From positions 1 to 55,817 of IMG/VR virus record IMGVR_UViG_3300046474_000593: a stretch of DNA of 55,817 nt; one strand, given 5' to 3'. The position numbers and the translations under genes were made by a program. Shown piece by piece: positions 15,585 through 54,776 of this stretch; within the stretch, counting starts at the first letter, position 1; each line of letters begins with the position of its first letter. The notes under the pieces are model-generated. The model was not told the origin of the DNA. It searched no databases and saw only the letters and a program-made list of their open reading frames with translations. The stretch comes from a virus.

Positions 15585-15602
15585 GTGTGTGGGTTTCGCC
15601 TG

Positions 15603-18537: not shown

Positions 18538-18586
18538 TTGAAGTCCTCAATTTATGCGGCACGCGAATGGCGGCCAAAAGTTTCGA

Positions 18587-19465: not shown

Positions 19466-19467
19466 CG

Positions 19468-20106
19468 TCACACCTGCGCTTGCATTGCGGTGATGCGCCA
19501 GCCCATATCGGTCAGTTCAGCGCTCGAAATCATGTATTTGCGGTCGAGGTCGTCGCGGATGATGTCGCTGGTGCGGAGCACGATGCCGGGGTAAGCCGGA
19601 AGCAGGATCAGCCACCACGGGGTTTTGACGTCCTGAGGCAGCTTCGCCTCGTTCGTCTCGCCCTTGGTGCCCTGCAAGATGCTGGCGGGCCAGCCCTGCA
19701 TGATTGGCACCTCGTCGGCGCGCACACCGCCGGACCAGCCCCCAAGGCCTACGCCGCCATCCTGGCCAACCCGTAGCACATCGACGGTGCGATTCGTCTG
19801 TACGCAGTAGATCGGCAGCGTGTCCTGCATGGCGGCGATGAAGAACGTACCCTGCCGGCCGACAAGGAAGTCACCAACAGCGAACTGCCGACCATCGAAC
19901 AGGCCAAGCCACGTTGCCTCGCCGTATTTGTTGGGCGCGCTGTAGGTGAATTTGGTCGTGAAAGAGACCGGCAGCGTCTGCAAAGCGGTTGTCGACAGCG
20001 GGTCATTGGCGCTCGTCGCGCGAAACTGCTGGTAGTCGAAACCGATTCGCTTGGCGGCCTTGCCGTAGCCGATGTAGATCTTGGCCTGAAGCTTTGTTCC
20101 GTCCAT
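19468..20106 (-). CDS. head-tail connector region protein
   Basis: A 212-aa protein of the head-tail interface, starting MDGTKLQAKIYIGYGKAAKRIGFDY. A repeated pattern of short beta strands (FLVGRQGTFFIAAMQ, PWWLILLPAYPGIVLRTSDIIRDD) fits structural proteins encoded between adaptor and tail terminator. It follows the adaptor gene by 1 bp. No specific family is claimed. Confidence 0.6.
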   Translation of the reverse strand: MDGTKLQAKIYIGYGKAAKRIGFDYQQFRATSANDPLSTTALQTLPVSFTTKFTYSAPNKYGEATWLGLFDGRQFAVGDFLVGRQGTFFIAAMQDTLPIYCVQTNRTVDVLRVGQDGGVGLGGWSGGVRADEVPIMQGWPASILQGTKGETNEAKLPQDVKTPWWLILLPAYPGIVLRTSDIIRDDLDRKYMISSAELTDMGWRITAMQAQV

Positions 20107-20107
20107 G

Positions 20108-20500
20108 TCAGCCCCTTGCCAGGCTGATGCCGCCGTCGCCCAGTGACGGACCAGGCGGCACGCCGAGGAAGCCGCACAACTCGCGGCGCCAGATCCGATA
20201 AAGGTTCATGCGGTCGCGCACTTCGTTCTTGTTGTGCACCCAAACGGCGGCCTGATCCGTATCAAGGTTCTCGGTAGAGGACAGCACATCCGCCTCGAGG
20301 CCCGCAATCTTGGTCAGAAACGAGGTCATCGTGACCTCTTCCTCTGGCCGGAGGTTGTTGAGCCGGTGATTCATGGTCTGCCAGATCATCGGCGCGACCC
20401 AGCCCCAAGCCGTGTCGCGTCGGTCATCGAGCGTCACGTCGCCCTGCATCGGGTAACCGGCGTAGCGACGGGCGTCCGACTTTTGCTGGTCAGTAAGCAT
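20108..20500 (-). CDS. head-tail adaptor-like protein
   Basis: A 130-aa, mostly helical protein downstream of the coat gene: MLTDQQKSDARRYAGYP, then WVAPMIWQTMNHRLNNL and a helix about RIWRRELCGFLGVP. Helical proteins of this size and position commonly form the adaptor ring under the portal. The assignment is by size, helicity and order. Confidence 0.6.
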   Translation of the reverse strand: MLTDQQKSDARRYAGYPMQGDVTLDDRRDTAWGWVAPMIWQTMNHRLNNLRPEEEVTMTSFLTKIAGLEADVLSSTENLDTDQAAVWVHNKNEVRDRMNLYRIWRRELCGFLGVPPGPSLGDGGISLARG

Positions 20501-20528
20501 GATCGGCTCCTGCTACGGTTATCGGTGG

Positions 20529-20792
20529 TTACACTGCTGCGTCGAGCAATGCTTGCAGCGCGGCTTGATCGGCGGTCTCGTCGAAGGTAATGCCCTTCTC
20601 TGTCAAAGCGACCTTCGTTGCCTCAAGCTTGGCAGCGGCTTCAGCAACAGCAGCGTCCAGAGCCTTCTGCTCTTTGGCGGTCAGTTTCTTTGGTGCGTAC
20701 AGCTCGTGCTCACCTTCAACGAAGTCTTCCTCGTTGATGAGGACAAAATCGCCCTGCCCTTCACCCCACGGCTTTACTTGAACGGTGCCCAT
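20529..20792 (-). CDS. small structural-region protein with HeH/LEM-like C-terminus
   Basis: An 87-aa protein beside the coat gene. The N-terminus is short and beta (MGTVQVKPWGEGQGDFVLINEEDF), then a Lys/Ala/Glu helix follows. The end (ALTEKGITFDETADQAALQALLDAA) resembles the HeH/LEM helix-extended-helix motif often seen in small proteins next to phage coat genes. Its function is unknown; assembly or DNA end binding has been suggested for relatives. Confidence 0.6.
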   Translation of the reverse strand: MGTVQVKPWGEGQGDFVLINEEDFVEGEHELYAPKKLTAKEQKALDAAVAEAAAKLEATKVALTEKGITFDETADQAALQALLDAAV

Positions 20793-20843
20793 ATGTTTCT
20801 CCTGGAAAGAGTGCGCCCGAGGCCAAAGCCCCGGGCGCAGTCA

Positions 20844-21998
20844 TTACGCCAACAGCAGCGCGGTGTGTTCCGGCTTGACCATCGCAACACCCCAGGCCAG
20901 TGCGATTTCGTACTGGATCTGGCGATATTGCTTGTACAGCGAGATCTCGAACGACAGACCGCTGGTTGGGTCGGTGATGATCATGCGGTCGGAGGCGCTG
21001 TCGCCGCCTTCTGGCAGAGCTGGCGCGCGAGTGGCAACCGCCAGAGCCGAGCGGGCAAACGCCATGTTGCGAGTGGTTGCAGCGATGACGGTGATCGCGA
21101 CAGCCGAGGCAGCGAGTGCCTTGCGCAGGCCAGGGGCTGCCAGCGTAATGGTGCCGCCGTTCGAGACATCGCCGTCGCCGGAGGCCAGCACGTATTTGTT
21201 GGTGTCACCGGCAAAGGTGATCACGTCGCCAGCCAACAGAGTACCGGTGCCGGCAGAGGCCAGAGTGATCACGGTCGCACCGACGGCATAGCCGGCAGTG
21301 TTGGTGGTCGCCGACGCGCCGGTACCTGCAATGATAGTCTTCACCTGAGCAGATTCACGAATCGCGAAACCGTGCACGTCCAGCAGCACACCACGGCGCA
21401 GCAGGTTGGTGTCGGCCGCCTCGTTCGCCTTGGTCAGCTGACCCAAGGTGCGCATGCTGGCGCCTGCAGTGGTGTCGAGCACCATTTGCAGGTCGCTCAT
21501 TGGCGAACCGTTATCGGCCAGGATCTTGCGCATTTGCGCCGCTTCGGCCAGGTTGGTGGCGAATGGTACAGTGCCTGGAGCGCCGTAAGCCCGGGAAGAC
21601 TTCAGGCACAGGTTGGCGATGTCGCTTTCGACTTCGTTGACCAGTGCGCGCATGCCTTGGGCGAGCTGGTCGCGCAGGATGACGTTGTACGAGGCGCCGT
21701 TGTTGTCCAGGCCGCGTTTCTCTTCACCATTCCAACGCACCGGCACCCGGCGAGCTTTGGTAATGGTCATCGACACGGAGCCGATGGTCTGGTCGCCGTC
21801 GTTTGGCGGGGTCACCGCCGGGGTGATGTCGGATGCGGTTGCAGCCGGCGCCACTGGCGAGGTGACGGTCTGACCTACAGCGGCGCGGTCGTAGGTCATG
21901 TCGGACGAAACGGACGGAATGAAACCGACCAGTTCGCGCGATACGACGTCCAGGGCGTTGTAGATCGTGGTGGTAAGGCCGGTGAGAGTGTTGCTCAT
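20844..21998 (-). CDS. major capsid protein, P22 coat-like
   Basis: A 384-aa coat protein. The N-terminal MSNTLTGLTTTIYNALDVVSRELVGFIPSVSSD and the KARRVPVRWNGEEKRGL stretch resemble the P22 gp5 coat family. A beta-rich insertion about 225-300 (YAVGATVITLASAGTGTLLAGD..NGGTITLAAPG) could correspond to the surface insertion domain of that family. It follows the scaffold gene, as in P22-like head modules, which use no maturation protease. Confidence 0.82.
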   Translation of the reverse strand: MSNTLTGLTTTIYNALDVVSRELVGFIPSVSSDMTYDRAAVGQTVTSPVAPAATASDITPAVTPPNDGDQTIGSVSMTITKARRVPVRWNGEEKRGLDNNGASYNVILRDQLAQGMRALVNEVESDIANLCLKSSRAYGAPGTVPFATNLAEAAQMRKILADNGSPMSDLQMVLDTTAGASMRTLGQLTKANEAADTNLLRRGVLLDVHGFAIRESAQVKTIIAGTGASATTNTAGYAVGATVITLASAGTGTLLAGDVITFAGDTNKYVLASGDGDVSNGGTITLAAPGLRKALAASAVAITVIAATTRNMAFARSALAVATRAPALPEGGDSASDRMIITDPTSGLSFEISLYKQYRQIQYEIALAWGVAMVKPEHTALLLA

Positions 21999-22014
21999 GG
22001 ATTGCTCCTAGGGA

Positions 22015-22773
22015 TCAGTCGGTAACTTCGCCGCCCGCAGAGACGTGTGCATGTTTGCCCATGGGGTCAAGTGCATCGAATTGCGTACGGGAGATGGTTT
22101 TTTTGCCTTGACCGCCATTCCCACCGTTGTTCGAGGCGCCAGAGCCGGAAGCCCCAGAACCTTTCAAGATGTGATCGCGGTGCGGGTATTGCTCAACAAG
22201 GGATTCGATTGCTTCGTCGAAGTCAGCGAATTCGCCAGGACGCGTGCGGCTGTAGATCTTGTTGCCGTGCTGGTCGTAGGCGATGGTTTTGCCATCCTCG
22301 ACTTTGAAGGCGGCGCCGAATTTGGACTGGACCAGGTCTGCAGGGATTGCCAGCTTCTCGCTGATGTACTTGGAACGGCTGAATGCACCGCCGATCTTTT
22401 CTTCGTAGAGCTGCTTTTCGAAGGTCTGCGCCTTGGTGGACCATTCATCAACCTGGCCTTTGTAGGCCTTGCTGATTTCTTCCTTCACCTTCTCGATCTC
22501 ACCGGCATCCACCAGCTTTTTCTGATCAAGGTTGGCGACGATCTCCAGGGCTTTCTTGGCAGCAGCGCCGTCCGTGATCCCCTCGAACGCTTTCAAAGCG
22601 GTTTCAGCCGCCTCTTTGCCTTCGCGATGGGTCTTGGCTTCAGCGTTGAGCCGAGTGATCGTGTTCACGGTGCCAGGCGCATCGAATGCCACCTCTTTGC
22701 CGTCGTCGTACACGTACACAGGCTTGCCGTCTTGCAGTACAACGTGGCCTTGGTCATCCAATTTCAGTTTCAT
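22015..22773 (-). CDS. putative scaffolding protein
   Basis: A 252-aa, highly charged, mostly helical protein with Ala/Lys/Glu heptad-like stretches (NAEAKTHREGKEAAETALKAFEGI) and a Gly/Ser-rich linker near the end, directly upstream of the coat gene. This composition and position fit an internal scaffold. Start 22773 has GGAG 8 nt upstream; an ATG 18 nt earlier overlaps that site. Confidence 0.72.
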   Translation of the reverse strand: MKLKLDDQGHVVLQDGKPVYVYDDGKEVAFDAPGTVNTITRLNAEAKTHREGKEAAETALKAFEGITDGAAAKKALEIVANLDQKKLVDAGEIEKVKEEISKAYKGQVDEWSTKAQTFEKQLYEEKIGGAFSRSKYISEKLAIPADLVQSKFGAAFKVEDGKTIAYDQHGNKIYSRTRPGEFADFDEAIESLVEQYPHRDHILKGSGASGSGASNNGGNGGQGKKTISRTQFDALDPMGKHAHVSAGGEVTD

Positions 22774-22851
22774 TGATGCATCTCCGGGCATCCGCCCATT
22801 TGTTGAGCCATCCGGCCCGGCGCGGCGCTATCCATCCGGAATCGCGCCCAT

Positions 22852-22877
22852 AAAAAAGCCCCGGCGAGTGCCAGGGC
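22852..22877 (-). terminator. intrinsic terminator between portal and scaffold genes
   Basis: Minus-strand hairpin of about 8 bp with one mismatch (GCCCTGGC/GCCCCGGC-type arms) and a 4-nt loop, followed by six T. It lies between the portal end and the scaffold start. Confidence 0.7.
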
Positions 22878-22892
22878 TGTATTCGGTGTTCG

Positions 22893-24281
22893 TTATTGCT
22901 GCGCGGACTTGGTCGGATCGAGCTTTATGGGCTGATTAGCAACCTTCGCCTTCTCCTCGTCCCAGTCGATCTCGTCACTGAGCAAGCCGCGGCGCTGCAC
23001 CTCATGGAACAGGCTCTCATCGGATAGGATCCGTGCCTTGTTGAGGCTCAGCAGGAACGGCATGGTCGTTTCAGGACTGAAGTCGACGTCGAAGTTGCCT
23101 TTGACCTTCACGTGCCCACCATCATCGAGCTTCATCCAAAGCGCGAAGTATTGGAGCACCTGGTCGAGCGCGTCTTCGAGTTGCCCGGCCATGGTCTGTA
23201 GCGGGCTCATCTCCTGAGCGGCCTCCTCCTCAGACTGCGAGGCTGTCTTGACGGCCTGCTTCTCCTTCTGGAGCAGCTTCGCCCCGGCGAGACGCATGTC
23301 CTCGACCAGATCAAGCAGTGACGTGCGTCCGGCATCAATGGCTTTGCCAGTGTGCTCGACCCACTTCATGTCGCAGTCTTTTGGAAGGCTCGTCGCCGAG
23401 CCAGCGCCGACAGTGATCGTCTGCCCCTCATCGAGACCAATCACTGCGAGCATCGGCACCCGGGCTACGTGCAGGATGTTGTCCTGATCACTCTGGGACT
23501 GCCAATGCTTGATGTTCATATTTGCCAGCTCGAGCAGTGGCGGTGTGGCGGTCAGGAAGCCGGTGCGCTTGGTGTAGAAGGTCGTCAGCGGGATGACCGA
23601 GAGACTGGTCAGCCCCTCATCATCCTTCTGCCAAGTCTTCTGCCCTTTGCCGTCGTCGACTTCTCGGTATGTCGCCCAGCCACCCGGCACCAGCACGCGG
23701 ATCTGATCCACGCTCTTGGTGCCGAACGCGCCATCGTCAACTTCGACGCACTCCATATAGCGGAACTGCGTCAGCACCTGCTCGCCGTTCTTGTTCATTG
23801 ATCGCCAACCGAGCACCTGCCCCGGCTTGATGACCACCGCATAAGGCCGAACGCCGGCTGATTTCTCTTCGGCCTTGGTCTTGATGCCTTCTGCCTTTGG
23901 ATGGTCAACCAGCACATGGAAGAGCCCGTGCGATAGGCCGCCACTGAAGAACGACTGGGCCCAGACCTGCAGGTTGTTGCCCTGAAGATCGAAGTCCTCG
24001 GCCATTTCCTTGATCTGGTCCGGCACGTCTTCGGTCAGCGTGATCGGGTCAGCGAATACGCGGCCGGTCATGTTCTGCACGGTCTCGCTCAGTGCTGGCA
24101 ATAACGTCGAGGTATTGAGCCTAGCGCTGTAAGCGTCGCCCTCCTCCTTCGGCCACTGCGGCAGGAACTTCTTGCCGGCCTTGCGCATGGCCCTGGTGCC
24201 GCCCATAAGCGCGTCGATGATGGCCCAGTCTTCGCGCATGGCGTCCACTGCCGGCAGCGTTTTGCTTGGGTCGTCAGACAT
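22893..24281 (-). CDS. portal protein (DUF4055 type)
   Basis: A 462-aa portal protein forming the dodecameric DNA gate of the head. It starts 2 bp after the large terminase ends, the usual order. Features: N-terminal DDPSKTLPAVDAMREDWAIIDALMGGTRAMRKAGKKFLPQ, the ALSETVQNMTGRVFADP segment, central WRSMNKNGEQVLTQFRY, and a C-terminal helical crown (PLQTMAGQLEDALDQVLQYFALWM). The start at 24281 (MSDDPSK) avoids a low-complexity basic extension that overlaps the terminase. Confidence 0.85.
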   Translation of the reverse strand: MSDDPSKTLPAVDAMREDWAIIDALMGGTRAMRKAGKKFLPQWPKEEGDAYSARLNTSTLLPALSETVQNMTGRVFADPITLTEDVPDQIKEMAEDFDLQGNNLQVWAQSFFSGGLSHGLFHVLVDHPKAEGIKTKAEEKSAGVRPYAVVIKPGQVLGWRSMNKNGEQVLTQFRYMECVEVDDGAFGTKSVDQIRVLVPGGWATYREVDDGKGQKTWQKDDEGLTSLSVIPLTTFYTKRTGFLTATPPLLELANMNIKHWQSQSDQDNILHVARVPMLAVIGLDEGQTITVGAGSATSLPKDCDMKWVEHTGKAIDAGRTSLLDLVEDMRLAGAKLLQKEKQAVKTASQSEEEAAQEMSPLQTMAGQLEDALDQVLQYFALWMKLDDGGHVKVKGNFDVDFSPETTMPFLLSLNKARILSDESLFHEVQRRGLLSDEIDWDEEKAKVANQPIKLDPTKSAQQ

Positions 24282-24283
24282 AG

Positions 24284-25768
24284 TCAGATTCTCAGAGGTG
24301 CGGTGGATGCGGTGCGTACACGCTTGGTCTTCGCGACGGCGAAGTATCTGAAGGCGTCGGAGCCGTGTGAGGTGCGGTCGTGGAGAGGCTTGTCCTTCCA
24401 GCAGCCGCGGTTCTCGTCCCACTCCTTGCGGTAGTTTTCGAGGTGTCCGATGCCTTCTTCGCACTTGGACTCGTCGAACACGCAGAGGGGAAGGATCTCC
24501 CGCGCCGCCTCGATGCCGGTATCAACGGCTGTCTTGGGCACGACCTGAAACCGGATGGAGTACTTCTCGCCATCGATCACATAGCCCTCTTTGGCGATGT
24601 CCTTGCGGCTCTTGGCGTCGCTGCCGAACTCCCGGTTCTCGATGTCGTGCGGCCCCCAGTGCTCGGAGTAGGTGTAACCCTTGTCCTTGAGCACCTTCAT
24701 GTAGTGCCTCAGGCCTTCGCCGGAGTTCTCGTAGTAGTCGATGACGTGGTATTCGGTGCCGACCTGACGCACGAACCAGATGGCCGTGGAGTCGCCGACA
24801 CCGATGTCCCAGAAGGTCATCACAGGCAGATGGCTGTTGTCCGGCACAACCCCTATGCGCTTGTTGGCATAGAGTTTGGCGAACTGCTTGGCGTAGTAGG
24901 CGCCCTCGACAGACTGCTGGAACGCCTCCACCGGGATCGATGGATACTCCCGCTTCATGTCGTCGCCGAGAGACTTCTCTTTGGCCGCGTACCAGGCGCG
25001 CTGGCCGTCGTTCGTGATGATTCCGTGCTTGGCTGCCAACTCATTGAAGTAGTCGGTCAGGCGCTGCGGGATGACCACGCCGGCAGGATCAAGCCGGTAG
25101 TCTTTGTTCTTCCACCAGCTGAAGAAGAAGAATTTCCAGTCCAGCAGGCCCAGGGGCACGCCGGATAGTTGCTGCTTCTCCGCGCTCTGGGAGTAGTCGA
25201 AGAAGTAGCCCGCCCTGCCCTCTGCCGTCGATTCGATCGTGACAAAGCAGTCGGTGGCCACAGCCTCGAAGGCGCCAGTGACGATCTCACGGGCCTTGTG
25301 CGGGAACTTGGCGCATATCTTCCCGAACTCGGACACGTGCAGGTAACGCAGCGTGCCGCCTCGGAAAGACGTGGAAACGTAGATCGAGCCGCCCTTGCTG
25401 AACACCAGCTCGCCCGACGCATCGTTGCGTGCAGGGTTGGCCTTGCGGATCTCAACCGGCAGGTTGTCGTAGGCGTACTTCACCTTCTCCCGGAACAGAC
25501 GCTTGGCGTCGTTCAGGGTGTGAGCAATCAGTGCGCACTTGGCTGACTCGAACAGAGCCGCGTCCAACTGGATGATGCAGCACTCGGTGGTGAAGCCCAG
25601 CTGTCGAGCCTTGAGGATGATGTTGCGAGTATGCAGCCCGTCGAAGTACTCGACCTGCTCGTCCGTCATCCGGAAGCGGACCTTCTTGCCCTGCTTGTCC
25701 GTGATGAAGTAGAGATTGTTCAGCCTCCAACGCTTGTCCCGGAGCAGCGCTATGTGCTCGGGCTTCAT
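24284..25768 (-). CDS. terL: terminase large subunit
   Basis: A 494-aa DNA-packaging motor. The ATPase domain shows a variant Walker A at about residues 50-60 (LKARQLGFTTE) and a Walker B-like LRYLHVSEFGK. The nuclease domain has FWDIGVGDSTAIWF with the first catalytic Asp and a final HGSDAFRYFAVA with another. Start 25768 is chosen for AAGGA 8 nt upstream; it begins 1 bp before the end of terS. The order terS-terL-portal-scaffold-coat is canonical. Confidence 0.93.
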   Translation of the reverse strand: MKPEHIALLRDKRWRLNNLYFITDKQGKKVRFRMTDEQVEYFDGLHTRNIILKARQLGFTTECCIIQLDAALFESAKCALIAHTLNDAKRLFREKVKYAYDNLPVEIRKANPARNDASGELVFSKGGSIYVSTSFRGGTLRYLHVSEFGKICAKFPHKAREIVTGAFEAVATDCFVTIESTAEGRAGYFFDYSQSAEKQQLSGVPLGLLDWKFFFFSWWKNKDYRLDPAGVVIPQRLTDYFNELAAKHGIITNDGQRAWYAAKEKSLGDDMKREYPSIPVEAFQQSVEGAYYAKQFAKLYANKRIGVVPDNSHLPVMTFWDIGVGDSTAIWFVRQVGTEYHVIDYYENSGEGLRHYMKVLKDKGYTYSEHWGPHDIENREFGSDAKSRKDIAKEGYVIDGEKYSIRFQVVPKTAVDTGIEAAREILPLCVFDESKCEEGIGHLENYRKEWDENRGCWKDKPLHDRTSHGSDAFRYFAVAKTKRVRTASTAPLRI

Positions 25769-25769
25769 G

Positions 25770-26369
25770 TCAGGCTTCCTTCGATAGGTCATCCATCAGT
25801 TTGGATAGTTCGTCCGAGTCTCCGGGCTGCTCTTTGTCGTCCAGGCCGAATGCCTGACGCTCAAGGACCTGCAAGTTCTTCATGGCCGATGACAACTGAA
25901 ACAGCGTCTTTGCGTTGCTCGGCAGGCCGACAGCGGAAAGCATGGTTGCCCGCCGCATGCCATTACTATCTTCCTTGGTCTCTTCGTCGATCGAGTCTTC
26001 GATCTCTTCCCGCTTGCTGATGGTCGTCAGCAGATCATCCATCAGCAGGTTCGCAAGGTTCGTGGCTTTGCGAATGTCCCGGCGATGACTGCGAACAACC
26101 CGGGCGCCTTCCTCGGCAGCCTCCTCGACGATCTCGGCATCACGCTCAGGGTTCGCACATTGATCTTCGCGAACCTCGCCGCGAACCAGCTTGTTGCGAA
26201 CCTCTTTACGCACCTGCTCGGAAAGGTCTCTCGCCCATCCAGAGGCCTTGGCCTTCTTGCGGATAGCGGTGTCGCTTATCCCATTACGGTCAGCGATGGT
26301 TCTGATGGAAAGCGCACCAGCCCGGTAGGCTCGTTCAATCGCCTCCCAGTCGGGTTGCTTTGCCGCCAT
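25770..26369 (-). CDS. terS: terminase small subunit
   Basis: A 199-aa DNA-recognition subunit of the packaging motor. The N-terminal helix-turn-helix is clear (RAYRAGALSIRTIADRNGISDTAIRKKAKASGW), followed by a long acidic/basic helical oligomerisation region (VRKEVRNKLVRGEVRE..DAEIVEEAAEEG) and an acidic C-terminus. It lies directly upstream of terL. Confidence 0.85.
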   Translation of the reverse strand: MAAKQPDWEAIERAYRAGALSIRTIADRNGISDTAIRKKAKASGWARDLSEQVRKEVRNKLVRGEVREDQCANPERDAEIVEEAAEEGARVVRSHRRDIRKATNLANLLMDDLLTTISKREEIEDSIDEETKEDSNGMRRATMLSAVGLPSNAKTLFQLSSAMKNLQVLERQAFGLDDKEQPGDSDELSKLMDDLSKEA

Positions 26370-36739: not shown

Positions 36740-36786
36740 GCAGGAGTTTAGCCACTTGTATATTTCAAAGTTAGCGCCGGGCTGTA
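36713..36786. promoter_or_regulatory. operator cluster at the genetic switch
   Basis: Three related sites lie between the divergent Cro-like and repressor genes: a perfect TTTAGC-GCACC-GCTAAA (36713-36729), a degenerate copy starting TTTAGC (36747-36763), and GTTAGC-GCCGG-GCTGTA (36770-36786). The middle site overlaps a TATATT -10 candidate (36759-36764) for the repressor gene. Confidence 0.7.
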
Positions 36787-36797
36787 ACCTTGGCGGC

Positions 36798-37571
36798 ATG
36801 GATATCAAATCGATTCGCCGAACAAACATGGTCGCCCTGCTGAAGGGACGATCTAAGGCTGTGTGCGCAGAGCTGTGGGGGACTTCGCCGTCCTACCTGA
36901 GCCAGATGCTGTCGGAGAACGCCACTCGCAGCGTGGGCGACGTCATGGCGCGCCGAGTGGAGATGGCCGAGCTGTTGCCGCACGGATGGCTTGACCAGGT
37001 GCACGATACCGCCGATCACTCCGAGCTAAACAATGTCTTCCAGCTGCCGATAGCCCGGGAGAGTGAGTTGCACCTGATAGGGGAGATTTCACCTTGGGGT
37101 AGCGACACGCCACTGGAGAGTGAGGAGGTTGAAGTGCCCTTGTATAAGGAAGTCGAGATTTCTGCGGGCAATGGAGCTACTTCAGTCCAAGCCATTCCAG
37201 GGCGGTGCATCAGGCTTTCAAGATCGACATTAAGAGATGCCGGAGTAGAGCCGGCCAATGCGATGGCGGCGACCGTGGCGGGCAACAGCATGTCACGCCT
37301 TATCCTGGACGGCTCCACGGTAGGAATCGACAAGGGAACCACCAACATCATCGACGGGGAGATTTACGCGATCGAGCACAGCGGCATGCTGCGGGTGAAG
37401 TACCTCTATCGCCAGCCGGGCGGTGGATTGCGCCTTCGGTCAGAGAACTCAGAAGAGCACCCTGACGAAATTTACTCGGCTGACGAGGTTGCTGAATCTA
37501 TCCGAATTATTGGTTTCGTTTTCTGGTGGTCCACGATTCGCCCAACCCGTGGGCGCGGCAGAACGCTGTAA
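36798..37571 (+). CDS. S24 (LexA/CI-type) prophage repressor
   Basis: A 257-aa repressor. The N-terminal HTH (AVCAELWGTSPSYLSQMLSENATRSVGD) is followed by an S24 autoprotease domain with Ser164 (AGNSMSR), Lys201 (LRVKYLY) and a likely cleavage pair Ala123-Gly124 (ISAGNG). RecA-stimulated self-cleavage would trigger induction. Start 36798 is chosen because the upstream extension runs through the operators. It faces the Cro-like gene. Confidence 0.9.
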   Translation: MDIKSIRRTNMVALLKGRSKAVCAELWGTSPSYLSQMLSENATRSVGDVMARRVEMAELLPHGWLDQVHDTADHSELNNVFQLPIARESELHLIGEISPWGSDTPLESEEVEVPLYKEVEISAGNGATSVQAIPGRCIRLSRSTLRDAGVEPANAMAATVAGNSMSRLILDGSTVGIDKGTTNIIDGEIYAIEHSGMLRVKYLYRQPGGGLRLRSENSEEHPDEIYSADEVAESIRIIGFVFWWSTIRPTRGRGRTL

Positions 37572-40043: not shown

Positions 40044-40622
40044 ATGATGACTCATATCACTTGCGGCGAATCGACGATCAGCAGCCCCGACAAGGCGCTG
40101 GTGCTGATGTTTGCGAACATGGTTCTTGGCGGCGAGCAAGCCAAGGCGCCGGCGGCGAACAGCGACGTTCCGGCGATCGGCACTTACTGGGCGGGGCAAG
40201 GCGGAATCTACGCCGGCATCCGGCAGGGTGAGGATGGCGAGCTTTACCACCTGATCTTCGCCGACGAAGACATCGGTGAGCATGCCTGGGGCGAGTACGG
40301 TACCGAGACCGCCGCCACCAGCAAGGTCAACGGCATCCTGAACACCACGACCCTGCTTGAGGCTGATGGATCGTTCCCGGCAGCAGAGGCAGCCGGCAAT
40401 CACTCCGCCGACGGTCGCCACGACTTCTACCTACCAAGTATTGGCGAACTGAATCACGCCTGGCAGACCATCGCCGAACACTTCGAGAAGACTTGGTACT
40501 GGTCAAGTTCGCAGCGCTCCGCCGACAACGCGTTCATCATGAACTTCGATGTTGGCGGTCAGAACACCAGCGACAAGGGCCTCACCGCGCGCGTCCGCCC
40601 CGTCCGCAGATTGCCTATTTGA
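40044..40622 (+). CDS. DGR target protein 1 (CLec / DUF1566-like fold)
   Basis: A 192-aa protein whose last third is a C-type-lectin-like domain ending in a DGR variable repeat. It has HDFYLPSIGELNHAW, then TWYWSSSQRS and the variable segment, then ARVRPVRRLPI. The N-terminal 60 residues contain no signal peptide, membrane helix or recognised tail-attachment domain, but share the GQGGIYAG pattern with target 2. The CLec scaffold would present 12 or more diversified residues for ligand binding. It lies about 9.4 kb upstream of the template, the remote target of the system. GGAG precedes the first ATG by 8 nt. Confidence 0.9.
   Translation: MMTHITCGESTISSPDKALVLMFANMVLGGEQAKAPAANSDVPAIGTYWAGQGGIYAGIRQGEDGELYHLIFADEDIGEHAWGEYGTETAATSKVNGILNTTTLLEADGSFPAAEAAGNHSADGRHDFYLPSIGELNHAWQTIAEHFEKTWYWSSSQRSADNAFIMNFDVGGQNTSDKGLTARVRPVRRLPI
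40509..40612 (+). repeat. DGR variable repeat 1 (VR1)
   Basis: 104 nt aligned to the template at 50047-50150 without gaps. I count 12 differences, each at a template adenine (to G, C or T), within codons such as AAC-to-GAC, AAT-to-GGT and AAC-to-CTC. The non-adenine positions are identical. The GC-rich 3' end (ACCGCGCGCGTCCGCC...) is the shared initiation region. Confidence 0.95.
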
Positions 40623-43111: not shown

Positions 43112-43930
43112 ATGTCCGCAGTAATGAAGCAGGCCGACAACTTACCCGCGCTATCAGAGACGGCACTCGTTGAGGTTTTGAGCAGCAGCTTGTACCCAGG
43201 CGCCGCACACAACTCGGTCGTTATGGTCTTGGCCTACTGCCAGGCTGCGCACCTGGACCCGATGTTAAAACCTGTTCACATCGTGCCGATCTGGAACAAA
43301 GACACGAAAAAGATGCAGGACACGGTAATGCCGGGGATCGGCCTGTACCGCATTCAGGCCGCGCGCACCGGGCAGTATGCCGGGATCAGCGACCCAGAAT
43401 ACGGACCTTCGATCACCACGAAGCTTGCGGGTGTCGACGTCACCTACCCGGAATGGTGTCGGGTGACCGTAAAACGCCAAATGTCCAACGGGCTTGTCGC
43501 CGAGTTCACCGCCAACGAGCGCTGGCTTGAAAACTACGCGACCTCCAGCAAAGACAGCGTGGCACCGAATGCGATGTGGAAGCGCCGCGCCTTTGCCCAG
43601 CTCGCCAAGTGCGCCGAGGCCCAGGCCTTGCGAAAGGCGTTCCCTGAAGTCGGCTCTGCTCCGACAGCGGACGAGATGGAAGGCAAGGCCTTCGAAGAAA
43701 CTCCGCGCGACGTAACGCCAGTCCAGCAGGCCCAGCCCGAACCGGAAGCGCTGCCAGGCTACCCGGACGAGTTGCTGAAAGAGAACGTCGTCAAGTGGCA
43801 GCCATTGATCGACTCTGGGCGCACCAGCCCTGAACACTTGATCTCGACCATCCGCAGTAAGTACGCGCTGAGCCCGGCGCAGATCGAAACCATCACCAAC
43901 CTCAAAGCCATCGATGGAGACGCAGCATGA
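43112..43930 (+). CDS. bet: single-strand annealing protein (Bet/RecT family)
   Basis: A 272-aa recombinase of the Red-beta/RecT group: NSVVMVLAYCQAAHLDPMLKPVHIVPIWNKDTKKMQDTVMPGIGLYRIQAARTGQYAGISDPE is a hallmark stretch, followed by MWKRRAFAQLAKCAEAQALRKAFPEVGS. It anneals single-stranded DNA made by the exonuclease encoded next (4-bp overlap). AAGGA lies 7 nt upstream of the ATG. Confidence 0.92.
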   Translation: MSAVMKQADNLPALSETALVEVLSSSLYPGAAHNSVVMVLAYCQAAHLDPMLKPVHIVPIWNKDTKKMQDTVMPGIGLYRIQAARTGQYAGISDPEYGPSITTKLAGVDVTYPEWCRVTVKRQMSNGLVAEFTANERWLENYATSSKDSVAPNAMWKRRAFAQLAKCAEAQALRKAFPEVGSAPTADEMEGKAFEETPRDVTPVQQAQPEPEALPGYPDELLKENVVKWQPLIDSGRTSPEHLISTIRSKYALSPAQIETITNLKAIDGDAA

Positions 43931-45552
43931 AAATTCATAACGTTGCCCAAGGCTCCGCCGAGTGGCATGCACTGCGCGCCAAGCACTTCACCGCATCCGA
44001 AGCCCCGGCAATGATGGGCGCATCGAAGTACCAGACCCGCACCGAGCTGCTGACGATGAAGAAGACCGGCATCGTCGCCGAGGTAACCCCGTCGCAGCAG
44101 TACATCTTCGACAAGGGTCACGCTACCGAAGCAGCGGCCCGCCCGCTGGTTGAAGTGCAGATAGGCGAAGAGCTGTACCCAGTGGTTGGCACGCTGGGCA
44201 ACCTGCTGGCCTCTATGGATGGCGCAACGATGCTCGGCGAGACGCTGTTCGAGCACAAGCTGTGGAACGAATCGCTCGTCGCCCAGGTGAAGGCTGAAGA
44301 TCTCACCCCCCACTACTACTGGCAGCTTGAGCAGCAACTTCTGGTCAGCGGCGCCGAGCGCGTGATCTTCGTTTGCTCGGACGGCACCGCCGAGAACTTC
44401 GTCAGCATGGAATATCGCCCAGTCGCCGGTCGCGCCGAGCAGTTGGTCGAAGGCTGGAAGCAGTTCGAGGCTGATCTGGCGAACTTTGAAATGGCCGACG
44501 CGCCTTCAATCGTCGTCGGCAAGGCGCCTGACGAGCTGCCAGCGCTGCGCATCGAGCTGACCGGCATGGTTACCGCCAGCAACCTGAAAGTGTTCGAGCA
44601 ATCGGCGCTGGCGGTCATCGATTCGGTGAAAACCGAACTGACGACTGATCAAGACTTCGCTGACGCAAAAAAGGCCGTTAAGTGGTGCGGCGATGTCGAA
44701 GAGGCGGTCGCAGCAGCCAAGAAGCAGGCCTTGTCGCAAACCGCCACCATCGACGAACTGTTCTCGTCTCTGGACCGCATCTCGGCACATGCCCGCGAAA
44801 CCCGCCTGAAAGTAGACAAGTTGGTGAAGGCGCAAGAACTGCTGGTCAAGTCGAACATCAAGCAAAAGGCCGAGCAGGCGCTGGCCGATCACATCGCAGC
44901 AATCAACAAGACCCTGGGCAAAGTTGTCATGCCAACAGTCGCCTCCGACTTCCTTGGCGCCATGAAGAACAAGCGCACCATTGCCAGCTTGCAGGACGCC
45001 GTCGATACCGAGCTGGCCAGGGCGAAGATCGATGCCAGCCAGTCCGCCGACTGCATTCGCTTGAACCTGACCAGTCTTGCGGAACTGGCCGCCGATCACG
45101 CGTTCCTGTTCAGCGATATTCAGCAGTTGGTGACCAAAGCCAATGATGACCTGGTGACGCTGATCAAGTTCCGGATCTCGGAGCACGATAAAGCCGAGGA
45201 AGAGAAAGCCGAAGCCACTCGCAAGCGCATTCGCGAAGAAGAGCTGCAGAAGATCGCCGATGCTGAAAAGGCGAAGCAGGTCGAGCCGGTAGCCGTCGCT
45301 CAGCCATCCGTGAGAACTGAGCAGTCTGCACCGCGCGTTTCGGCAGTGACCCCATCGGCCAAGGTTCAGCCAAAGCCGATGAAGCTCGAAGCACGGGTGA
45401 CCGACCTTGAAGCGCTGGTGAAGGCTGTAGCGGCCGGCCAGGCACCCATCAGCGTGCTGACTGTCAACTGGCAGGGTCTTGATGATCTTGTCGATGCTCA
45501 AGGTTCTGAATTCAACGTGCCGGGGGTAATCCTGGAGCAGGTGGCAGCATGA
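43927..45552 (+). CDS. YqaJ-type exonuclease with long C-terminal extension
   Basis: A 541-aa protein. Residues 1-190 are a YqaJ/lambda-exonuclease-type nuclease with GHATEAAARP (Glu68), LLASMDG (Asp98) and FEHKLW (Glu109, Lys111) as probable metal and catalytic residues. Residues 190-540 add a helical region with coiled-coil character (ALSQTATIDELFSSLDRISAHARETRLKVDKL; EKAEATRKRIREEELQKIADAEKAKQ) and a DUF1351-like feel. It would degrade 5' ends to load the annealase encoded upstream. Confidence 0.88.
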   Translation: MKIHNVAQGSAEWHALRAKHFTASEAPAMMGASKYQTRTELLTMKKTGIVAEVTPSQQYIFDKGHATEAAARPLVEVQIGEELYPVVGTLGNLLASMDGATMLGETLFEHKLWNESLVAQVKAEDLTPHYYWQLEQQLLVSGAERVIFVCSDGTAENFVSMEYRPVAGRAEQLVEGWKQFEADLANFEMADAPSIVVGKAPDELPALRIELTGMVTASNLKVFEQSALAVIDSVKTELTTDQDFADAKKAVKWCGDVEEAVAAAKKQALSQTATIDELFSSLDRISAHARETRLKVDKLVKAQELLVKSNIKQKAEQALADHIAAINKTLGKVVMPTVASDFLGAMKNKRTIASLQDAVDTELARAKIDASQSADCIRLNLTSLAELAADHAFLFSDIQQLVTKANDDLVTLIKFRISEHDKAEEEKAEATRKRIREEELQKIADAEKAKQVEPVAVAQPSVRTEQSAPRVSAVTPSAKVQPKPMKLEARVTDLEALVKAVAAGQAPISVLTVNWQGLDDLVDAQGSEFNVPGVILEQVAA

Positions 45553-46575: not shown

Positions 46576-47640
46576 ATGACCCCTTCCCATCAGATACTGG
46601 TCGGCGACTGCATCGACATGATGCGGACTCTGCCCGACCAGTCAGTGCAGTGCTGCGTAACCAGCCCGCCCTACTTCGGGCTGCGGGATTACGGTGTTGA
46701 CGGGCAGATCGGCCTCGAGCAAACACCGGGCGAGTTCATCGGGCGGCTGGTCGAAGTGTTCCGCGAAGTGCGCCGAGTACTCCGCAACGACGGCACAGCT
46801 TGGGTGAACATGGGTGACAGCTATGCGGCGCGCTCAACGGGGAATCTGTCATTTCGACGTGATAGAGCTGCCGTCTCGCCAGATCGTGCACCGCTGGCAG
46901 AAGGGATCAAGGTCAAGGACATGATGGGGATGCCTTGGCGGCTGGCCTTTGCACTCCAAGATGACGGCTGGTACCTGCGTCAGGACATCATCTGGCACAA
47001 GCCGAACCCGATGCCAGAAAGCGTACGAGACCGGTGCACTAAGTCGCACGAATACATTTTCCTGCTCAGCAAATCGCAGAAGTACTACTTCGACCAAGGC
47101 GCGATCCTCGAACCCTGTTCGCCGAACACTCACAACCGGCTTTCGCAAGATGTCCTCGCACAGATCGGCAGCGACCGGGCCAACGGCGGGGCCAAGAGCA
47201 ACGGTAACATGAAGGCGGTGGCCAGGAAATCGAACGGCGTTGGCTGGGGCCATGGCACCGACGGTGATGAGCGCGGCCGGGGCCGGATCAAAGACAACGA
47301 GTCAATGAATTCCGCCCTTGCGGTGATGCCGAACGAGCGAAACAAGCGCACCGTCTGGACGGTACCGACACACAGCTTCAAGGGCGCCCACTTCGCTACC
47401 TTCCCGCCCGACCTGATCCGGCCATGCATTCTGGCCGGGGCCCCTCGCGGCGGTGTTGTACTCGACCCGTTCGGCGGTGCCGGTACCACGGCGGTGGTCG
47501 CCATGCAGGAGGGTCGCAAGTCAGTGCTTTGCGAGCTCAATCCAGAGTACGCCGCCATGGCCGAGCGCCGGATCGCGGCGGCCTGGCTCGACGGCGCAGC
47601 GCAGATGGATGTGTTTCACGATTCGCTGCCAGCCGCCTAA
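46576..47640 (+). CDS. DNA methyltransferase (N4-cytosine/N6-adenine, beta class)
   Basis: A 354-aa methyltransferase. The catalytic TSPPYFG motif is near the N-terminus (SPPY at residues 30-33, most often N4-cytosine or N6-adenine). The SAM motif LDPFGGAGTTAVVA is near the C-terminus, the beta-class order. A central variable region probably holds the target-recognition part. No restriction enzyme is adjacent, so it is probably an orphan that protects phage DNA. Confidence 0.9.
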   Translation: MTPSHQILVGDCIDMMRTLPDQSVQCCVTSPPYFGLRDYGVDGQIGLEQTPGEFIGRLVEVFREVRRVLRNDGTAWVNMGDSYAARSTGNLSFRRDRAAVSPDRAPLAEGIKVKDMMGMPWRLAFALQDDGWYLRQDIIWHKPNPMPESVRDRCTKSHEYIFLLSKSQKYYFDQGAILEPCSPNTHNRLSQDVLAQIGSDRANGGAKSNGNMKAVARKSNGVGWGHGTDGDERGRGRIKDNESMNSALAVMPNERNKRTVWTVPTHSFKGAHFATFPPDLIRPCILAGAPRGGVVLDPFGGAGTTAVVAMQEGRKSVLCELNPEYAAMAERRIAAAWLDGAAQMDVFHDSLPAA

Positions 47641-48156: not shown

Positions 48157-48762
48157 ATGAAGACCAAAACGATTTCCATTGAGGCTGACGGCCTCAAGAT
48201 CAAAGGAACCTCTGAGCGGATGGTGCAGGTGCTGATGGCTAGCCTGCTCGCCCAGACCCTGCCGCCGGCGGCCAATGTTCAACCTGTCCAGGTCGCAGCA
48301 GGTGTTCCCGCGCTCGGCACAGAATGGCCAGGCCAAGGCGGTTTCAACGGTGGGTTCATACCAGCTCGCGGCGATGTCCCTGCGCACTATCTGATCATCG
48401 CTGCCAATGATGTTGGTGACCATGAGTGGGGAAATCGCGGCAAAGAATCAGGCGCCACCAGCAAGACTGACGGACACGCGAACAGCGTCATCCTGCTGGC
48501 TGATGGAGGTCATCCTGCAGCAGAGGCCGCTGATGAATACACCGCCGACGGACACACGGACTTCTACCTGCCCGCCTGTGCCGAGCTGTACCACTGCTGG
48601 GTGAACGTGCCGGACCTGTTCGCGAAAGACACCTGGTACTGGTCATCTTCGCAGCGCTCCGCCAACGGCGCGTTCGGCATGCACTTCGGTGGTGGCGGTC
48701 AGGACTACTACGGCAAGGACGCCACCGCGCGCGTCCGCCCCGTCCGCAGATACTTTATTTAA
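48157..48762 (+). CDS. DGR target protein 2 (CLec / DUF1566-like fold)
   Basis: A 201-aa protein with the same layout as target 1: short N-terminal part (MKTKTISIEADGLKIKGTSERMVQVLMASLLAQTLPP), GQGGFNGGF, HTDFYLPACAELYHCW, then TWYWSSSQRS and the variable repeat ending ARVRPVRRYFI. It has no signal peptide, membrane helix or tail domain. A terminator follows 33 bp after its stop. It is immediately upstream of target 3. Confidence 0.9.
   Translation: MKTKTISIEADGLKIKGTSERMVQVLMASLLAQTLPPAANVQPVQVAAGVPALGTEWPGQGGFNGGFIPARGDVPAHYLIIAANDVGDHEWGNRGKESGATSKTDGHANSVILLADGGHPAAEAADEYTADGHTDFYLPACAELYHCWVNVPDLFAKDTWYWSSSQRSANGAFGMHFGGGGQDYYGKDATARVRPVRRYFI
48649..48751 (+). repeat. DGR variable repeat 2 (VR2)
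   Basis: 103 nt aligned gap-free to the template; I count 17 differences, all at template adenines (for example AAC-to-GGC, AAC-to-CAC, AAC-to-TAC, GAT-to-GGT, GAC-to-GGC). It is the most diversified of the three repeats. Confidence 0.95.
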
Positions 48763-48795
48763 TCCTTCATTCATCCGTTCTTGATCCGGCACCGG

Positions 48796-48815
48796 GGCGC
48801 AGCAGCGCCTTTTTT
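48796..48815 (+). terminator. intrinsic terminator between DGR targets 2 and 3
   Basis: Stem GGCGC/GCGCC with loop AGCA and six T. It ends 25 nt before the start of target 3. Confidence 0.7.
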
Positions 48816-48840
48816 GTTGCCTTCGAAAAGAGGAAAGACC

Positions 48841-49461
48841 ATGTCCGCAGCAGAGCAAGTCGCACCAGCAGCCATCCTCCCGGAAATCGGCCAGCCTTTC
48901 GGTGGCGGGTTCTTCACCGGCATCACCCGTGACCCGGGCACCGGCAAACGTTACCTGAACATCACCGTCGGTGCGGCTCACGAACTGGTCGGTGCCTGGG
49001 GCGAGTACGGCGTGAAGATCGAAGGCGCCGACAGCTTCACCAGCAGTCGGGCCAACACCGAAGCCATGGCAGCCGCAGGCAGCGAACTGGCACAGAAGGT
49101 TATGGCGCTGGATATCGGTGGACATACCGACTGGGCGATCCCGGCGCGTGACGTGCAGGAGCTGCAGTACCGCCATTTCAAGCCGACCACCGAAACGAAC
49201 TGGCAATACGGACGCAGCGGTGACAACCCGAACAGCGAGCCTGTCGGGCTGCTGCACACCGAAGAGTCGCCAGCACAGACCACGTTGGCCGTCTTTCAGG
49301 CTGGCAGCGCTGAAGCCTTCAAGCCAACCTGGTACTGGTCATCTTCGCAGCGCTCCGCCTACACCGCATTCTACATGACCTTCGTTGATGGCACTCAGCT
49401 CAACCTCGCCAAGAGCGTCACCGCGCGCGTCCGCCCCGTCCGCAGTCAATTGATTGATTAA
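48841..49461 (+). CDS. DGR target protein 3 (CLec fold)
   Basis: A 206-aa protein. The core differs from targets 1 and 2 (FGGGFFTGITRDPGTGKRYLNITVG; HTDWAIPARDVQELQYRHFKPTT), but the end is the same: TWYWSSSQRS, a variable repeat, ARVRPVRSQLID. GAGG lies 7 nt before the ATG. It has no signal peptide or tail domain and is probably a soluble binding protein. It is directly upstream of the avd-like gene. Confidence 0.9.
   Translation: MSAAEQVAPAAILPEIGQPFGGGFFTGITRDPGTGKRYLNITVGAAHELVGAWGEYGVKIEGADSFTSSRANTEAMAAAGSELAQKVMALDIGGHTDWAIPARDVQELQYRHFKPTTETNWQYGRSGDNPNSEPVGLLHTEESPAQTTLAVFQAGSAEAFKPTWYWSSSQRSAYTAFYMTFVDGTQLNLAKSVTARVRPVRSQLID
49345..49445 (+). repeat. DGR variable repeat 3 (VR3)
   Basis: 101 nt aligned gap-free to the template; I count 14 differences, all at template adenines (AAC-to-TAC, AAC-to-ACC, GAT-to-GTT, AAC-to-CTC, GAC-to-GCC and others). 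Confidence 0.95.
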
Positions 49462-49518: not shown

Positions 49519-49875
49519 ATGGGAATGCATACAGAATTGAGCATCTACAAGGTGTCACTGGGCCTGCTCCAGATGGCGACGAACCTCACCCGCAACATCC
49601 CCCGAGATCTCAAGCAGTCTCTCGGGAAGCGCGTCATCGATGAGTGCATCGACGTGCTGATGTTGATTGCCCGGGCCAACTCGACCCGGGACAAGCACCC
49701 ACACCTGACCCTGCTGGTAGAGAAGGTCCAGGTCATCGAGTTCCTGATGCGACTCTTCAAGGAGAGTCGGTTCATCAGTGTCGGGCAGCATGCCACTTCG
49801 ATAGAGGTTACTTCCTCGATCGGTAAACAGGCCACTGCCTGGAAACGCGCCACCCCAACCGCGCCCGCCATCTGA
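49519..49875 (+). CDS. avd: Avd-like DGR accessory protein
   Basis: A 118-aa basic, all-helical protein with the composition and length of the DGR accessory variability determinant (a four-helix bundle of the S23 family). It starts LSIYKVSLGLLQMATNLTRNIPRD and continues KRVIDECIDVLMLIARAN and LLVEKVQVIEFLMRLFKES. In known DGRs Avd binds the reverse transcriptase and template RNA and is required for mutagenic cDNA synthesis. It sits between target 3 and the template, as usual. Confidence 0.85.
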   Translation: MGMHTELSIYKVSLGLLQMATNLTRNIPRDLKQSLGKRVIDECIDVLMLIARANSTRDKHPHLTLLVEKVQVIEFLMRLFKESRFISVGQHATSIEVTSSIGKQATAWKRATPTAPAI

Positions 49876-50046
49876 GAGTCACGGCTTTCAGGTCTGTGCG
49901 AATTGAATCTGGTCGTGCCGCTGACCTCTGGGTCACCGCCATGCGCATCAGAGATACCGACGGCCTAAAGAGTCCGTGCAGGTCTCGCGCAGTTTCCTTG
50001 CTGATCGGCTCTGCCTTCGGCTTGGCGACGTAGATAGCACGATAGG

Positions 50047-50150
50047 TCGCAGCGCTCCGCCAACAACGCATTCAACATGAACTTCGATGATGGCAATCAG
50101 AACAACAACGACAAGAACAACACCGCGCGCGTCCGCCCCGTCCGCAGATT
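50047..50150 (+). repeat. DGR template repeat (TR)
   Basis: 104 nt that matches all three variable repeats except at adenines. It is AAC/AAG-rich in the variable part (about 28 adenines across 20 codons) and ends in the same GC-rich block as the VRs. Read in the VR frame it would encode SQRSANNAFNMNFDDGNQNN and similar Asn-rich text, the typical DGR template. It has no start codon or frame of its own as a target and overlaps the start of the reverse transcriptase gene by 64 nt. Confidence 0.95.
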
Positions 50151-51247
50151 CGAATGTTGGTCCCTACCCGTTCAGCGAGCTTGTTCAGGCCTATTACGAC
50201 TGCCGCCGCTCGAAGCGCAACAGCGCCAGTGCATTGGCTTTCGAAATGGACCTGGAGCGCAACCTGATCGGCCTACACGACGACCTGATCGCCGGCGCCT
50301 ACCGGCCAGGCCGCTCGATATGCTTCGTGGTCACCCGACCGAAAGCCCGAGAGGTTTGGGCCGCTGCCTTCCGGGACCGCGTCGTCCACCACCTGCTGTA
50401 CAACCGTGTGGTCCCGCGCTTCTACGCCAGCTTCATAGCTGACAGTTGCGCGTGCATTCCCGGGCGCGGCACGCTGTACGCCGCCACCCGGCTTGAGGCG
50501 AAGATCCGCAGTGCCAGTCAGAACTGGTCGAAGCCATGCTGGTATCTCAAGCTGGACCTGGCCAACTTCTTCGTCGCGATCGACAAAGAGGTTCTGCGCA
50601 AGCAGCTGGCCGCCAAGATCACCGAGCCCTGGTGGCTGGCACTCGCCGAACAGATCCTTATGCACGACCCTCGCGAAGACTACGAGGTGCGCAGCCCGGC
50701 CCATCTGTTCAACCGGGTACCGCAGCACAAGCGGCTCACCGCGCAACCTGCCCGGCTTGGCCTGCCCATCGGCAACCTGTCGTCGCAGTTCTTCGCCAAT
50801 GTGTACCTCGATGCGCTGGATCAGTTCGCCAAGCACCGGTTGGGCGCCAAGCATTACGTCCGCTACGTCGATGATTTCGTGTTCCTGCACGAGTCACCAC
50901 AACAGCTCAACGCCTGGCTGGCAGAGGTTGAAGCGTTTCTGCCCAGCCTCGGCGCCAAACTGAACCCGAGCAAAACTATCCTCCAGCCCGTGGATCGCGG
51001 CGTCGACTTCGTTGGCCACGTCATCAAGCCGTGGCGCCGATCAACCCGTAAGCGGTCACTGGCCCAGGCACTGAAGCGCACCGCTGCTGCACCGGCCGAA
51101 GATCTGCGCGAAACCGCCAACAGCTACTTCGGCCTGCTCAGTCAGGCCAGTCACAGCGAGAAAGACCGGGAGAAGCTGGCCAACGTCGTCCTGCGGCGCG
51201 GCCACGCAGTAAACGGCGCGCTGACCAAGACCTACCCGAAGAAATAA
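50087..51247 (+). CDS. DGR reverse transcriptase
   Basis: A 386-aa group II-intron/DGR-type reverse transcriptase. Visible motifs are RDRVVHHLLYNRVV, KLDLANFFVAIDKEVL (first catalytic Asp region), LPIGNLSSQFFANVYLD with the DGR/retron-type SQ motif, and YVDDF (Tyr260-Asp263) as the active site, then FVGHVIKP. Upstream the frame is closed by TGA at 50078-50080. The only plausible starts are the ATG pair at 50087/50090, which lies inside the template repeat, with no clear ribosome site. It would make the adenine-mutated cDNA from TR. Confidence 0.92.
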   Translation: MMAIRTTTTRTTPRASAPSADSNVGPYPFSELVQAYYDCRRSKRNSASALAFEMDLERNLIGLHDDLIAGAYRPGRSICFVVTRPKAREVWAAAFRDRVVHHLLYNRVVPRFYASFIADSCACIPGRGTLYAATRLEAKIRSASQNWSKPCWYLKLDLANFFVAIDKEVLRKQLAAKITEPWWLALAEQILMHDPREDYEVRSPAHLFNRVPQHKRLTAQPARLGLPIGNLSSQFFANVYLDALDQFAKHRLGAKHYVRYVDDFVFLHESPQQLNAWLAEVEAFLPSLGAKLNPSKTILQPVDRGVDFVGHVIKPWRRSTRKRSLAQALKRTAAAPAEDLRETANSYFGLLSQASHSEKDREKLANVVLRRGHAVNGALTKTYPKK

Positions 51248-54119: not shown

Positions 54120-54547
54120 GAAACCTGTTTCAGGAAACGCACGCCAGCTTCAAGAACTTCCACCGGAGCCTGTGCGCCCGGTTCGGCTATGTCCACGATG
54201 ATCGAGACTGGCAGCGCGACCAGGTATCGCTGGAGGAACATATCGCCGGGCAACTCAATGACCTGAAGGCCAAAACCGAAAAATGGTGCGGCTATGGCGA
54301 TAACCACCGCATGCATACGTTTTACGGCAATGCCGAGGCGATAACGGAGCTTGGAAACGTAATCTGTGCAGTCGAGGGATTCCGCGAAGCGCTGATGACA
54401 ATCCTCGATTCTTCGAGCGACGGCGCGGCGCGAAAATGCGCTTCCGATGCACTGGCAGTACATAAGCAGATCTGGGCCAACACGCGCAGGACTGACGAAA
54501 CGAGTGGAGAGGGTTTAGATGAACAAATCAACGACAGAGACCATTGA
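54116..54547 (+). CDS. early protein, unknown function
   Basis: A 143-aa protein (MRNLFQETHASFKNFHRSLCARFGYVHDDRDWQRDQVSLEEH), mostly helical, acidic at the end. Its last 29 bp overlap the AlpA-like gene. No family was recognised. Confidence 0.62.
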   Translation: MRNLFQETHASFKNFHRSLCARFGYVHDDRDWQRDQVSLEEHIAGQLNDLKAKTEKWCGYGDNHRMHTFYGNAEAITELGNVICAVEGFREALMTILDSSSDGAARKCASDALAVHKQIWANTRRTDETSGEGLDEQINDRDH

Positions 54548-54776
54548 CCGCTTCCTGCGCCTCGACGAGGTGTTGCACACCACCGGCCTGGGCCGTAACA
54601 CGGTTTATCGTCGCATCAGGGAAGGCACCTTCCCAAAACAGGTTAGAATAGGTCCCAACTCAGTCGCTTGGCGCCAGTCAGCCATCGCTCAATGGATGAT
54701 CGATCTGCCCCCAGCAACGACCAATCAGTACATTGATCAGTACACCAAAAACAACTCCTCGCGACAAACCCTCTAA
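54519..54776 (+). CDS. AlpA-family excisionase / regulator
   Basis: An 85-aa helix-turn-helix protein of the AlpA/MerR-like type: [50 protein letters not shown]. AlpA-like proteins act as excisionases or integrase activators in P4-like elements. It is the last phage gene on the right, next to the integrase in the circular form. It is followed after 23 bp by queD. Confidence 0.85.

Follow-up and report, generated by a model that had tools for sequence, protein, structure and literature searches.

Diversity-generating retroelements (DGRs) of phages are generally explained as devices by which a tail switches receptors, which raises the question of what such an element is for when the proteins that it diversifies appear to be stand-alone early proteins. 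The locus that poses this question lies in IMG/VR record IMGVR_UViG_3300046474_000593, analysed here over its whole stretch of 55,817 bases (the window) and read as a temperate Pseudomonas prophage or phage. The temperate lifestyle is indicated by a tyrosine integrase (1-1176), a CI-like repressor (36756..37571, plus strand; PHROG transcriptional repressor, 1.7e-35) and an excisionase-type regulator (54519..54776, plus strand; PHROG, 2.8e-15). A queD-type bacterial gene (6-pyruvoyl tetrahydropterin synthase family, as assigned from sequence) is located at 54800-55156, at the right end of the record, suggesting that the record probably includes host flank.

The window carries one complete DGR, all of it on the plus strand, consisting of the accessory variability gene avd (49519..49875; Pfam bAvd 1.6e-11, over the cut-off; PHROG 'Avd protein of DGR' 2.5e-29), an RT-15 structured RNA (49859..50049; Rfam RF03018, 181 bits, full length) that runs into the template repeat (TR), a TR core of 102 nt with 32 adenines (50047..50148) and a reverse transcriptase (RT) gene (50087..51247; RVT_1 2.2e-19; PHROG RT 1.8e-117). 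The RT is 90% identical to that of phage Cruim01 and 32% identical to Brt of BPP-1. Ahead of the conserved RT N-terminus, the reading frame offers start codons only inside the TR, so that ~20 RT codons would overlap the TR.

Variable repeats (VRs) were located by searching the whole 55.8 kb with every TR adenine set to N. Exactly four copies were present, the TR itself and the C-termini of three plus-strand genes, T1 (40044..40622; VR 40509-40610), T2 (48157..48762; VR 48649-48750) and T3 (48841..49461, ATG at 48841; VR 49345-49446), and the scan found no fourth VR in the window. The VRs of T1, T2 and T3 differ from the TR at 12, 17 and 15 positions, respectively, with 44 of 44 differences falling at TR adenines and 0 of 210 non-adenine positions (70 per VR copy) changed, which rules out chance repeats as the source of the VRs. 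The final 24 nt of the TR, an IMH-like GC-rich 3′ end, are common to all VRs except for the last base, which is changed from A to T in T3. GC-rich hairpins at 48794-48811 and 49476-49493, 44 nt past VR2 and 30 nt past VR3, may be terminators or homing elements as described for BPP-1. Across 63 related loci, 139 VRs were changed at 2124 of 4533 template adenines versus 389 of 9923 other sites, the latter count including target-specific edges. In thirteen target pairs the constant parts are at least 98% identical, yet 10-21 sites differ within the last 140 nt, indicating that diversification is recent. The cassette in the window is intact and, as far as retrohoming activity can be judged from sequence, the DGR is of a working type.

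All three targets are on the strand of the repressor, recombination and excisionase genes, opposite to that of the tail genes. The plus-strand block is headed by the CI-like repressor, 2.5 kb upstream of T1, and continues through an HNH gene, T1, a single-strand annealing protein and a RecE-like exonuclease (43112..45552; PHROG 1.1e-105 and 1.8e-228), a DNA methyltransferase directly upstream of T2 (46576..47640; PHROG 7e-83), T2, T3, avd, the RT-15 RNA, the TR and the RT, to the excisionase-type regulator that closes it. The annealing protein and exonuclease are predicted early recombination genes, and gene content and synteny match those of a lambdoid early operon of the pL type and point to early expression. 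Scans for promoters and terminators gave no excess of hits over shuffled sequence and were not used. The late block (3040..25792, minus strand) encodes fibre, baseplate J, tape measure, sheath, capsid, portal and terminase proteins, a tail gene set of contractile type, and holds no VR. The description given by the initial annotation, of three free-standing lectin-fold targets in an early rightward block far from the tail genes, was confirmed. It had also stated that both real fibre genes lack a VR; the masked-TR scan found none in either 3040-4743 or 15847-18537, but only the former matches tail-fibre PHROGs, while the latter, which encodes an 896-aa protein between the sheath and head genes, shows only a weak match to GDSL esterases at its C-terminus and a match to a family without assigned function, and is at most a putative fibre gene. 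Two structured RNAs scored slightly over their gathering scores, a Proteo-phage-1 RNA in the early block (RF03044, 42887-42963, plus strand) and an abiF RNA (RF03085, 28009-28044, minus strand). The abiF RNAs are associated with abortive-infection genes.

The targets are short proteins (192, 201 and 206 aa for T1, T2 and T3) whose VRs lie within a C-type lectin-fold domain, as indicated by Lcl_C matches for all three and by the predicted structure of T2. Their Pfam Lcl_C (PF07603) scores of 29.1, 25.6 and 28.3 bits (E-values 1e-5 to 1e-6) fall below the curated cut-off of 34.9, and the domain is accordingly classed by profile as a divergent Lcl_C relative. T2 has an N-terminal beta-hairpin and helix (residues 5-34), a linker and the lectin domain (55-201). 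This small hairpin-helix is conserved in T1, while T3 lacks it, begins directly at the lectin domain and carries an insertion of ~50 aa before the VR. In the predicted T2 structure, most of residues 55-160 are modelled with pLDDT >90 and the VR loop is of low confidence; the T3 prediction, with a pLDDT of 42, was too poor to judge alone and was set aside. Among solved structures, the sequence profile matched significantly only the C-terminal domain of Legionella Lcl (PDB 8q4e, PF07603; E 3.2e-4), which is of the same fold family and also took Foldseek rank 1 (E 0.036), although Lcl is an extracellular collagen-like adhesin and the targets contain no collagen repeats. Pseudomonas phage D3 orf68 was among the top predicted viral structures.

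A Pfam and PHROG search of T1-T3 returned nothing beyond Lcl_C and one PHROG of unknown function. No tail-attachment domain was found, all Pfam, PHROG and structure matches being confined to the lectin domain, nor did any target contain an effector domain (NTPase, protease or adapter); the targets stand alone. A fold search with the T1/T2 hairpin-helix produced no hit above noise level (gpW, VapB and Lsr2, with E >3), and this element, as modelled, does not correspond to a recognised tail-docking domain. The initial claim that the targets have no tail-attachment domain thus stands insofar as none was recognised, and is refined by the conserved hairpin-helix of T1 and T2, for which the proposed single-target structure prediction gave no match, while providing a confident lectin domain for T2. 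The claim that they have no membrane helix was borne out by simple hydropathy, which detected no transmembrane helix or strongly hydrophobic segment in T1-T3, and no lipobox was present. The N-terminal helix is moderately hydrophobic in some T2 relatives (Kyte-Doolittle up to ~1.7), and given this, T1 and T2 may be exported or contact the membrane.

The short form is general. A total of 181 targets was collected from related loci, with median lengths of 195, 201 and 206 aa for the T1, T2 and T3 types, and all but a handful of the ~180 recovered are ~160-206 aa without a long N-terminal domain. A long tail domain concealed upstream was considered and rejected, as the longer open reading frames (at most 304 aa) result from extending the frame ahead of the conserved start, and elsewhere they reach at most 277 aa. 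One T3 relative (L050:10641-11250) is split into two frames of 137 and 112 aa, possibly a pseudogene or a sequencing error.

Short length and a lectin fold would also suit virion adhesins or decorations made early and supplied in trans, which would dock through the hairpin-helix or the T3 insertion on a generic tail or capsid surface and extend the range of receptors in the manner of Mtd in BPP-1. Wherever the role of a phage DGR target has been demonstrated, it is receptor binding, and a global survey found mainly tail-like viral targets in DGR clades 1, 4 and 6, other viral targets being classed only as unknown (PMC8144416). Mtd is likewise a separate protein, and the conserved mini-domain of T1 and T2 could dock, although T3 has no such mini-domain. 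Moreover, the same lectin domain family ends long phage proteins, including one with collagen repeats, so the fold alone does not exclude adhesion.

The location and tail comparison (TAIL INDEPENDENCE) bears directly on this explanation. It covered 50 IMG/VR records with a T2 relative, each searched whole, of which 47 contain a tyrosine integrase. A repressor was detected in 45 records, and in all of them it shares the strand of T2 and is encoded 2.8-11.8 kb upstream of it. An unambiguous tail marker was present in 39 records (15 contractile, Baseplate_J; 24 non-contractile, Phage-tail_3) and is on the strand opposite to T2 in 38 of them; the median distance is 35 kb (range 16.7-59 kb), and in the sole same-strand case, G032, the marker is 59 kb off in an 86-kb record. 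In the BPP-1 control, by contrast, mtd adjoins the tail genes on the same strand, so that the BPP-1 feature of a target in the late or tail transcription unit is absent from the window and from 38 of the 39 relatives, where the target is on the opposite strand and far from the tail genes. Both the strand arrangement and the contrast with mtd count against adhesins.

The relation of T2 to tail type was measured on a tree of its constant part (VR removed) with the tail labels shuffled 500 times. Tail type changes 13 times on this tree, compared to a shuffled mean of 12.8, with 343 of 500 shuffles as low, and at least 8 of the changes are forced by well-supported branches. The T2 constant part is common to contractile- and non-contractile-tailed phages, and this lack of clustering, which also speaks against adhesins, indicates that T2 lineages occupy phages with unrelated tails as if the tail were irrelevant. 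A co-evolving tail partner was rejected, as the T2 tree carries no signal of one. Lambdoid phage early genes recombine freely, and missing linkage to tail type is therefore a necessary sign of tail independence, not a sufficient one. A distant homologue in PMBT3 is found at the end of an apparent late operon, after the lysis genes. Plasmid carriage was dropped as evidence of a non-viral role, because CP124671 carries a phage early block (S24 repressor, ERF, YqaJ) and looks like an extrachromosomal prophage.

The BPP-1 DGR (mtd-avd-TR-brt) has the same order of target, avd, TR and RT and an adenine-specific C-terminal VR in a lectin-fold protein, but its single target of 381 aa is inside the tail operon, whereas the three targets of ~200 aa here are in an early block on the opposite strand. 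The DGR of Burkholderia phage Magia (genes 44, 45, 47 and 57) has a related RT, 67% identical to that of the window, and likewise short lectin-fold targets in an early leftward block, one beside avd and the RT and one near the repressor, although its scaffolds are highly divergent and only 120-154 aa long. The Magia announcement flags two 'relatively short reading frames', early 'lectin fold' genes, as potential DGR targets and makes no functional or comparative argument (PMC7883833). Between the annotated potential target and avd, an extra short lectin-fold relative with a helical N-terminus is encoded in Magia (gp46, L087:32316-32780) and in QDWS (L088:1971-2441); it looks like a further DGR target, unflagged by the annotators. 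Homologous targets in non-tail blocks also occur in Pseudomonas phages Cruim01, Aurca01, Medea1, Haboob and phPA-G, mostly annotated as 'hypothetical protein', with the RTs of Haboob and phPA-G being 72% identical to that of the window. Cruim01 and Aurca01 are reported siphoviruses and Haboob has siphovirus-type tail genes, in contrast to the contractile set of the window. A literature search, in which subscription papers were thinly covered, found no account of phage DGR targets as early intracellular proteins and no report of orphan DGR targets in jumbo phages; the early-target class has precedent in annotation, not in argument.

Further evidence came from T3-like genes in phages without a detected RT, namely D3/phi_D3, PMG1 and nine Wroclawvirus jumbo phages. 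At the DNA level these orphans are ~88-90% identical to the target gene in the DGR of Haboob, a temperate phage, and they differ from the Haboob template at 17-23 of 36 adenine sites and at only 6-18 of 74 other sites, an adenine bias that makes them look like frozen DGR products. The jumbo phages (L159-L164, L166, L167 and PA5oct, L085:11962-12453) carry several distinct, protein-conserved VR alleles, at least four in all. Within two jumbo groups, each sharing an identical VR protein, the eight variable VR codons are 8 synonymous and 0 nonsynonymous, whereas the constant part has 18 synonymous and 23 nonsynonymous ones (Fisher p = 0.0046), indicating that the frozen binding face is conserved at the protein level. 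According to a survey of 2021, lectin domains of the FGS type are absent from jumbo phages. The Deifobo and Paride annotations miss the orphan, with antisense ORFs called over it instead. The D3 orf68 reference (L084:11787-12347) is frameshifted in the VR, possibly through a sequencing error in an old record, and phi_D3 (L169:1812-2489) is intact.

The near identity of these orphans in jumbo phages with unrelated virions is a further point against adhesins. The PA5oct orphan, gp379, is one of the small genes that make up a block in the terminal repeat. It has no ESI-MS/MS flag in the virion mass-spectrometry annotation, whereas other proteins of the record, including gp444, gp434 and gp431 of the same terminal repeat, are flagged, although a missing flag is a weak negative. 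A virion role is therefore disfavoured by tail independence and, weakly, by this missing flag, and we regard virion adhesins as unlikely. The initial proposal that the targets are not dedicated tail proteins holds well beyond the window, given the short relatives, the absence of clustering by tail type and the RT-less orphans in unrelated virions.

The orphan adjoins cI on the same strand in D3, PMG1 and FBPa42, and the D3-like orphans appear to sit in early regions. Together with the position of T1 shortly downstream of the same-strand repressor, this arrangement would be expected if the lysogen produced the targets, or lysis set them free, and they coated the host surface or incoming phages, excluding superinfection by masking. 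The nearest solved structure is that of Lcl, a binder of surface glycosaminoglycans, and the hydrophobic N-terminal helix of some relatives would also be consistent with masking. However, in the PMG1 annotation the cI transcript is divided from the target by a terminator and by a distinct promoter, T1-T3 contain neither a recognisable lipobox nor a strongly hydrophobic segment, and retention of the gene by lytic jumbo phages disfavours any purely lysogenic role, all of which make masking very unlikely. The same retention weighs on the idea that the targets regulate the phage switch or other prophages, for example as variable antirepressors that bind heterologous repressors, since jumbo phages have no known lambdoid switch and nevertheless keep frozen copies. 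Regulation would account for the constant placement in the repressor-to-integrase block, and conflict between lysogens would supply a changing intracellular ligand, but the targets contain no known antirepressor fold or DNA-binding domain, and we consider this the least probable of the explanations.

Three possibilities had been raised at the outset, action inside the cell, entry into the virion by an unspecified route and action on other phages or host factors, and intracellular action is now the best supported. We consider it reasonably likely that the three targets are small variable binders made with early genes of the lambda pL type that function within the cell during infection or lysogeny, probably in conflicts of phage with host or of phage with phage. 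This reading has a precedent in intracellular bacterial DGR targets of the CLec type in Thiohalocapsa and relatives, which are multicellular; several are predicted to be cytoplasmic, and they have been proposed as antigen sensors of conflict systems (PMC10907252). Most of those sensors are joined, by fusion or linkage, to modules of the NTPase, protease or adapter type, unlike the effector-free targets of the window. If the targets do act as intracellular binders, the RT would rewrite their lectin face, and selection would retain those variants able to bind, through this face, an intracellular partner that itself keeps changing, most likely a component of host defence or of a competing phage. 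The constant scaffolds (the T1/T2 hairpin-helix and the T3 insertion) would serve self-assembly or a shared downstream contact, and successful variants would then spread by recombination, even into phages without an RT.

The RT-15-associated class is widespread in temperate phages of Pseudomonas and, by gene order, is also found in Burkholderia and Shewanella phages. The frozen copies in jumbo phages offer ready-made fixed variants for ligand fishing, which makes the question of what a non-tail DGR target binds directly testable. More tentatively, the class could represent a hypermutating intracellular phage 'antibody' repertoire directed against host defences or rival phages, from which proven alleles pass to lytic giants that lack the mutator and are there selectively kept unchanged. 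Should the ligands prove to be defence proteins, the parasite's side of the arms race would be using somatic-like hypermutation.
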